The translations under genes were made by a program, and so were the position numbers. This document shows positions 27,714 through 28,660 of a DNA stretch of 51,756 nt, in pieces. Source of the stretch: Candidatus Nomurabacteria bacterium. Its GTDB lineage: Bacteria; Patescibacteriota; Minisyncoccia; Phycocordibacterales; UBA9973. The notes beneath the pieces were generated by a model. That model was given only the letters and a program-made list of their open reading frames with translations. It made no database searches and had not been told where the DNA came from. The stretch is taken from contig CALRHK010000003.1 of the NCBI GenBank assembly GCA_943359475.1, positions 1-51,756 on the forward strand, given 5' to 3'. Within the stretch, counting starts at the first letter, position 1, and the number at the start of each line of letters is the position of its first letter.

Positions 27714-27786
27714 GCGCCCGTAGCTCAGTCGGTAGAGCAGTTGCCTCTTAAGCAAACGGTCGGAGGTTCGAATCCTCCCGGGCGCA
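27714..27786 (+). tRNA. tRNA-Lys (CTT)
   Basis: Acceptor GCGCCCG/CGGGCGC; anticodon loop CTCTTAA; GGTTCGAATCC T-arm. Confidence 0.93.
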
Positions 27787-27815
27787 CATAGGTATCTGTT
27801 GTGGATACAAGAAAT

Positions 27816-27899
27816 GCCGGGGTGGCGAAATTGGCAGACGCACTTGCCTTAGGAGCAAGCGGAAGTAATTCCATGGAGGTTCAAGTCCTCTCCCCGGCA
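27816..27899 (+). tRNA. tRNA-Leu (TAG)
   Basis: Acceptor GCCGGGG/CCCCGGC; anticodon arm CTTGC-CTTAGGA-GCAAG; long variable arm. Confidence 0.93.
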
Positions 27900-28070
27900 C
27901 ACGCACTGTGTGTGCGAGACTTGAAAGGCGGAGCGATGTCGAGCCAGCAGGCGAGACCGCGAGCCGGGGTCGAGAAAGTATACGAGCGTCGGCGAGTATA
28001 CTATTCGTGACCAAGTCCTCTCCCCGGCACACGCACTGTGTGTGCGAGACTTGAAAGGCGGAGCGATGTC
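27882..28070 (+). repeat. Post-tRNA-Leu(TAG) element with duplicated tRNA 3' end
   Basis: 27882-27940 and 28012-28070 are identical (59 nt, offset 130); core hairpin AGTATA-CGAGCGTCGGCGAG-TATACT at 27977-28002. Confidence 0.9.
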
Positions 28071-28095
28071 TTTCGTTGTGTTGGTGGAAATGAAT

Positions 28096-28167
28096 GGCCT
28101 AGTCGTCAAGTGGTAAGACAAGAGTCTGCAAAACTCTTATACGGCGGTTCGATTCCGCCCTAGGCCT
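28096..28167 (+). tRNA. tRNA-Cys (GCA)
   Basis: Acceptor GGCCTAG/CTAGGCC; anticodon arm AGAGT-CTGCAAA-ACTCT. Confidence 0.93.
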
Positions 28168-28312
28168 CAAAGGAAAAGCTAAGCTTTTTCTTGCGGGATC
28201 GAACGACCGGAGCGGGGCACCCATCGAGTACGATGGGTCGCGAGGTGGGGTAGCGAAATTTTACGAGCGACGGCGAGTAAAATATTCGTGACTCGATTCC
28301 GCCCTAGGCCTC
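28149..28312 (+). repeat. Post-tRNA-Cys element with duplicated tRNA 3' end
   Basis: TCGATTCCGCCCTAGGCCTC at 28149-28168 and 28293-28312; core hairpin ATTTTA-CGAGCGACGGCGAG-TAAAAT at 28258-28283. Confidence 0.9.
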
Positions 28313-28326
28313 CCACATTTAAATAT

Positions 28327-28414
28327 GCCCGGGTGATGGAATTGGTAGACATAGGGGACTTAAAATCCCCAGGCACAAAATGCCGTGCGGGTTCGATTCC
28401 CGCCCTGGGCACCA
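28327..28414 (+). tRNA. tRNA-Leu (TAA), CCA encoded
   Basis: Acceptor GCCCGGG/CCTGGGC; anticodon arm GGGGA-CTTAAAA-TCCCC; ACCA at the 3' end. Confidence 0.93.
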
Positions 28415-28617
28415 ATTACTTTTCTAATTTACAGGGAGCAGGCAAACTACTTTGCCTGCGTCGGGAATCGAAAGACTTTTCTATACGAGCGTAGCGAGGC
28501 AGAAAAGTACCTGCTGATGTAGTCAGAGATTCCCGCCCTGGGCACCAATTACTTTTCTAATTTACAGGGAGCAGGCAAACTACTTTGCCTGCGTCGGGAA
28601 TCGAAAGACTTTTCTAT
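28395..28617 (+). repeat. Post-tRNA-Leu(TAA) element with duplicated tRNA 3' end
   Basis: 28395-28484 and 28528-28617 identical (90 nt, offset 133); core hairpin ACTTTTCT...AGAAAAGT (28475-28508) with ACGAGCGTAGCGAG inside. Confidence 0.9.
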
Positions 28618-28631
28618 GTTAGGTATAAAAA

Positions 28632-28660
28632 TAAAACACTCGTTAGAGTGTTTTATTTTT
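28632..28660. terminator. Terminator after tRNA cluster / rbfA
   Basis: AAAACACTC-gtta-GAGTGTTTTATTTTT. Confidence 0.7.

Follow-up and report, generated by a model that had tools for sequence, protein, structure and literature searches.

Three consecutive tRNA genes of a Candidatus Nomurabacteria genome, tRNA-Leu(TAG), tRNA-Cys(GCA) and tRNA-Leu(TAA), are each followed by a small structured tail of the same kind as the tRNA-linked repeats (TLRs) of E. coli, and the best reading of these tails, which we hold with moderate confidence, is guide-positioned insertion of TLR-class micro-elements that join and regenerate gene 3' ends. The tails lie in a window of 51,756 nucleotides (GenBank assembly GCA_943359475.1, contig CALRHK010000003.1, positions 1 to 51,756 of the forward strand), which is the whole stretch of DNA analyzed and forms contig 3 of a 648-kb, 30-contig genome (G000) estimated to be 100% complete. 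Five features are new here and together lead to this reading, namely a bounded guide, a covarying core, a spread throughout the candidate phyla radiation (CPR), protein-gene targets and foreign gene ends. The guide as a bounded feature, the protein-gene targets and the foreign gene ends were absent from the first-pass annotation of this DNA.

Each unit runs in the order gene, X1, hp0, guide, core, GTGAC and X2, where X1 is the 3' end of the gene from the junction on, hp0 is a variable hairpin and X2 is a further copy of the gene end. X1 begins at a fixed point, either C56 of the T-loop or the tRNA terminus; hp0 has a variable stem, frequently a CTGC loop, and lies about 10 nt ahead of the core; the guide comprises about 10 nt plus the first 2 nt of the core; and the core measures 88 nt, with two hairpin domains and the 3' end GTGAC. 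All features of the window given below are on the forward strand. Behind tRNA-Leu(TAG) (27816-27900; ARAGORN and Rfam), X1 runs from C56 (27882 on), hp0 lies at 27897-27915 by sequence and fold, and the guide, GCGAGACTTG plus the AA of the core, lies at 27914-27925, its final 8 nt pairing with the T-loop TT/CAAGTC (slash at the junction). The type 1 core (27924-28011; 102.1 bits with our covariance model R1, and covariation) ends in GTGAC and is followed by X2 at 28012-28070. Behind tRNA-Cys(GCA) (28096-28168; ARAGORN), X1 is 28149-28168, hp0 is 28172-28190 by sequence, the guide GCGGGATCGAAC (28193-28204) is complementary to GTTCGATTCCGC at 11/12, the type 1 core occupies 28203-28292 (R1, 81.9 bits) and X2 occupies 28293-28312. 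Behind tRNA-Leu(TAA) (28327-28414; ARAGORN), X1 starts at 28394/28395, hp0 is GCAGGCAAA-CTAC-TTTGCCTGC (28438-28459; sequence and repeat search), the guide is TCGGGAATCG plus AA (28461-28472; from the sequence, and 11/11 in a de novo scan), the core (28471-28527; nhmmer) is of a second type and X2 is 28528-28617. The tRNA-Lys gene just upstream (27714-27787) has no tail, and a perfect terminator-like hairpin, found as an inverted repeat, marks the end of the cluster (28627-28660).

The first-pass annotation had placed these three tRNAs, the hairpin behind each and three exact direct copies, and all of these stand: 59 nt (27882-27940 = 28012-28070), 20 nt (28149-28168 = 28293-28312) and 90 nt (28395-28484 = 28528-28617), the 59- and 90-nt repeats being far above chance expectation. 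Three further claims needed amendment. The copies do contain the tRNA end, but rather than stopping there the 59-nt copy comprises tRNA end, hp0, guide and core nt 1-17, and the 90-nt copy likewise passes through hp0 and guide into core nt 1-14, so both represent truncated second units like those of a tandem array. The stretch described as antisense to the T-arm is present and is really the bounded guide, made up of 10 nt and the two opening nt of the core. The structured core said to be common to all three tails is one family at Leu(TAG) and Cys; the core at Leu(TAA) is a second, smaller type that has the CGAGCG..GCGAG motif alone in common with type 1. Relatives of the type 2 core occur at Leu(TAG) of another genome (G002; L226) and behind another tRNA of this genome (L008), and at Leu(TAA) of the window and Leu(TAG) of G002 the layout of hp0 and guide is that of type 1.

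The guide carries much of the argument. It lies directly 5' of the core, and its complementarity to the gene spans -2 to about +8 relative to the junction and falls to chance level beyond. A match of at least 10/12 was found in 69 of 125 elements, a few of whose loci overlap and are not fully independent, against 9.6 expected when guides were swapped and 1.6 when they were shuffled. Among 59 tRNA elements, with the junction set independently, by X2, pairing was 0.69-0.93 at positions -2 to +7 and 0.54 at +8, and it was 0.05 at -3 and 0.36 at +9. The 33 elements of the T-loop class gave 0.76-1.00 across -2 to +8, and even at the variable positions +1, +3 and +8 the values were 0.94, 0.88 and 0.76 versus 0.40, 0.27 and 0.25 after swapping. 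Positions -2 and -1 belong to the upstream half of the gene, which is missing from X2, and their match shows a guide suited to the intact site. Wherever X1 and X2 disagree, the guide sides with X1, by 72 to 15. The main rival explanation, which we consider rather unlikely, requires no dedicated mobility and attributes the tails to slippage or template switching at the palindromes of tRNA terminators, tandem duplication and gene conversion; under it, the guide would be one arm of a quasi-palindrome corrected to match the gene, an account against which the edges of the guide, fixed at -2 and about +8, must be set. We also observed that element-bearing tRNA-Asp genes (G238:C1:116563, L046, L050) have an odd T-loop, GGGGTCAGCACCC, together with a guide matching that odd T-loop; a tRNA-Asp without element (G090) has the normal T-loop TTCAAGT.

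The core shows strong covariation. In a structure-free alignment, RNAalifold predicted 30 pairs, with compensatory double changes in 26/30. Among 139 distinct core sequences fitted to model R1, double changes were seen in 30/30 pairs and 96.9% of cells were paired versus 73.0% in shuffled controls, a signal that was lost when the partner strand was slid. Wobble pairs lean to the sense strand (G.T 64 versus A.C 18), and covariation together with this bias fits a folded single top strand, either DNA or RNA. Both observations would also suit a functional RNA made from the tRNA transcript, such as a small RNA or an aid to tRNA maturation whose antisense strip pairs with the tRNA, with mobility being incidental; in support of it, the rRNA TLRs of E. 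coli are transcribed and bind Hfq and CsrA in vitro (PMC8144298). We regard this explanation as improbable, given that G.T pairs are rare in the core helices (64/3,650 cells) and not enriched in the guide, that terminator-like hairpins are frequent between tRNA and core, that presence at orthologous tRNAs is patchy in one family, and that protein-gene ends are among the targets. Two other RNA-based proposals were rejected: removal of an intron between X1 and X2 at the RNA level, as X2 is mostly a short or decayed tRNA end, and a guide for tRNA modification, as protein genes are targeted and DNA is duplicated.

The elements are abundant and widely spread. The present genome holds at least seven type 1 cores by model R1, at Leu(TAG), Cys, Leu(GAG), Met, Gly, Glu and Val; a search with the core sequence pattern gave five matches in it, all immediately following a tRNA. 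Identity is 91-98% among the four cores that stand at Leu(TAG), Leu(GAG), Gly and Met, although these differ in hairpin, guide and gene end. When the 35 tRNAs of this genome were scanned de novo for a guide plus a copy, with the core left unused, 4 were found versus 0.4 expected. R1 matches were obtained in 189/247 genomes of the order and, at E <= 1e-5, in 20/192 genomes across the phylum, among them members of distant classes in which tRNA genes show this arrangement too; records bearing the core include Nomurabacteria, Taylorbacteria, Zambryskibacteria, Adlerbacteria and Kaiserbacteria. Related tails with a structured core in these relatives bear out the earlier suggestion of a family of elements rather than one duplication. 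Of the strong matches, 102/128 lie 23-315 nt downstream of a tRNA or transfer-messenger RNA (tmRNA) gene on the same strand. The remainder lie in part at the 3' ends of topA (seven genomes), rplL, efp and a Xer-like gene, as named from reading the translated gene ends, and several further matches are probably tmRNA 3' ends overlooked by the gene finder, judging from their sequence. That one core occurs at tRNA, tmRNA and protein genes in many families is not what slippage and local duplication would lead one to expect. At one such locus (L089, G221:C42), the gene whose 3' end bears the element is Xer/integrase-like and might point to the enzyme.

Of the 92 cores with a mate in their own genome, 16 have their nearest neighbor there, and a genome-label test of core sharing gave 17 observed versus 3.0 by chance, with some loci overlapping; such weak sharing within genomes makes most copies look old. 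A viral origin was rejected, as no exact match to the pattern was found in viral_contigs. In Rfam, only tRNA and tmRNA reached the gathering score and the element matched no family, and a search of the literature on CPR tRNA repeats returned nothing on point. Duplications are a common fault of short-read assembly and some loci contain runs of N, yet the elements recur in independent metagenome-assembled genomes from many groups, one of them on a 693-kb contig, and the kind is present in the finished E. coli K-12 chromosome, so that an assembly artefact, which the first-pass annotation had raised as a way to overturn its claim, is scarcely credible.

Evidence for movement comes from empty sites and from topA. 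The spacing between Leu(TAG) and Cys is 20 and 15 nt, with no tail, in two other genomes (G014 and G026) versus 196 nt here; a second comparison of empty sites, G238 versus G090, was poor because of remodelled tails and N runs in both. In three genomes (G117, G274, G245), the C-terminus of TopA is encoded intact by both X1 and X2, and the codon differences between the two are mostly synonymous, with synonymous to nonsynonymous ratios of 12:1, 13:4 and 14:2, respectively. This indicates that two separately evolved coding ends were brought together, and it argues against local duplication, since such copies start identical and the second then decays regardless of codons. In a fourth genome (G061), the two topA copies are nearly identical over their common part, representing a younger event. 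By analogy with integrative elements, X1 is assumed to be the copy carried in. The same regeneration of duplicated gene 3' ends is a property of integrase sites, and a guide beside a hairpin is likewise found in IS200/IS605, so that the tails might be remnants of tyrosine-integrase attachment (attL/attR) or IS200/IS605-type miniature inverted-repeat transposable elements; we find this very unlikely, as one 88-nt core serves many targets, each with a matching guide, rather than one integrase serving one attachment site, and as Y1 transposase, the enzyme searched for on this point, is missing here and in G066, G129 and G195.

In the mechanism that guide-positioned insertion implies, a putative trans-acting enzyme would recognize the folded single strand, and the guide, acting as either DNA or RNA, would pair with the target around the junction and thereby set the 3' end of the core (GTGAC) exactly at the joining point. 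The X1 of the unit would be joined to the upstream half, so that the gene retains a working 3' end, and the old gene end, X2, would be displaced and then decay. Later recombination between X copies could give rise to tandem and truncated units.

Several results weigh against guide-positioned insertion. Most X2 copies are short, at 5-9 nt, and guide mismatches show no excess of wobble. Recent copies within this genome share the core only, their hp0 being unrelated and their guides specific to the locus, a pattern that gene conversion accounts for no less well than insertion and that also favors the explanation without dedicated mobility. Profile searches for a transposase common to the carriers were negative: PF01797 (Y1 transposase) gave 0 matches in this genome and was absent from G066, G129 and G195, PF00078 (reverse transcriptase) gave 0 in this genome, G238, G061, G129 and G195, and PF01548 (the DEDD recombinase of IS110) gave 0 in this genome. 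No free circle, excision product or transcript was seen, and in the 5S rRNA TLRs of E. coli the start of X has no matching guide. As required machinery, Y1 transposase, reverse transcriptase and IS110 were rejected, being missing here and in several high-copy genomes. The negative searches are likewise what an origin by slippage, template switching and duplication would predict, as are the tandem arrays with truncated second units, the existence of core-less terminators that extend into the complement of the tRNA end (L228, L231, L234), and long forms (L046, L048, L059, L064) in which the full reverse complement beyond hp0 mirrors the entire tRNA end.

Some loci deserve mention in their own right. 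The core-less tRNA terminators just described, together with that at L230, may be relics of the element or a host feature predating it. Behind one tRNA-Val (G238:C6:132500-133220) stand three tandem units with three different cores, each after the guide GATGAGGGACTTG, and at L053 (G010:C6, 1347-1420) two tandem elements directly follow an ARAGORN tRNA with the suppressor-like anticodon TTA. A further dispersed repeat with many copies was found on the minus strand of G238 (C4:49900-50200, C1:76380-76640, C5:86780-87000); its left part is TTAGCGACGTAGAGCGAG.. and its right part ..TTGTCCGGGGCTTGCCCCGG, and some copies contain TLR-like modules.

Among known systems, IS200/IS605 elements have a hairpin with a target-pairing guide beside it. 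In IS608, a tetranucleotide target is recognized through base pairing (PMC5934647). The present elements resemble IS200/IS605 and the REP/RAYT system in having hairpins on one strand with a target-pairing guide beside a hairpin; they differ in the length of the guide, about 10-11 nt versus 4, in the duplication of part of the target and in the lack of a Y1 transposase match in this genome. The lack of a reverse transcriptase match sets them apart from retroelements (group II introns, retrons and diversity-generating retroelements). Selection of a DNA site by short guides within a structured single strand is known from the bridge RNA of IS110 and the guide RNAs of TIGR-Tas (PMC11208160, PMC12045711), the latter defined by a Tas protein and by two spacers, each about 9 nt long and bordered by box C/D (PMC12045711). 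Here there is one guide, paired spacers were not recognized and the IS110 recombinase gave no match in this genome. Integrative elements at tRNA and other gene 3' ends likewise bring a new 3' end and displace the old one, but the present units are only about 130-200 bp, are gene-free and use one core at many targets per genome. The double-hairpin elements of fungal mitochondria are tiny mobile double hairpins, for which no enzyme and no target-complementary guide are known to us; they are alike in their tiny hairpin form, and of the two, as far as we are aware, only the present elements have a guide.

The closest relatives in kind are the TLRs of E. coli, so that the first-pass annotation, which had called rows of such tRNA tails undescribed, overlooked a described family (PMC8144298), while its tyrT/rtT precedent was apt and is more than a loose analogy. 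That family comprises 22 sequences at 10 loci, with 1-5 copies per locus, in which the 3' 18-19 bp copy the 3' end of the tRNA or rRNA lying upstream; they had no known function at the outset of that study (PMC8144298), and the tyrT/rtT repeats go back to Egan and Landy 1978 and Rudd 1999, as cited there. We read the E. coli K-12 loci directly, using for rrnA a stretch that excludes the 5S gene. At the lys, arg and tyr loci, a strip antisense to the start of the copy lies directly 5' of the core: 8/10 of these strips score 9-10 of 10, whereas only 8 of all 7,073 positions of the loci are antisense at >=9/10, and the summed match was 90/100 versus a permutation mean of 77, reached in 2/20,000 permutations, tandem copies being non-independent. 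At rrnB and rrnD (L291, L301), the 5S TLRs have an ATTTGA complementary to the far end of the copy, not its start.

With model R1, six E. coli loci gave nothing convincing (best E about 1) and no core homology was found; the likeness seen is thus one of kind, which need not mean common descent. Shared are the position directly downstream of a tRNA or rRNA gene, in tandem behind tRNA genes, a multi-hairpin core, a guide of about 10 nt (lys, arg, tyr) and a unit end that copies the end of the upstream gene from the T-loop onward, over 59, 20 and 90 nt in the window and often over only 5-9 nt elsewhere. The core sequence differs from the type modelled by R1, upstream of the junction the guide matches -2 and -1 in the CPR and nothing in E. 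coli, and 5S rRNA is targeted in E. coli while protein-gene targets were seen only in the CPR. A tentative possibility, on balance doubtful, is that a single ancient and so far undescribed class of guide-directed DNA joining gave rise to the TLRs of both E. coli and Patescibacteria; in it, a folded single strand, DNA or RNA, whose guide of about 10 nt can be reprogrammed would be joined at a set position within the guide duplex, and the enzyme responsible would be related neither to Y1 transposases nor to reverse transcriptases or IS110. In practice, R1 marks an abundant CPR feature outside Rfam that can mislead annotators of tRNA ends and terminators. Ever since they became known in 1978, TLRs have lacked an established function or mechanism; the bounded, target-matching guide beside a covarying core, now seen in two distant phyla, makes them amenable to experiment. 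If it is the guide that directs joining, the elements would form a very small programmable insertion system of a new sort, one that repairs whichever gene it enters.
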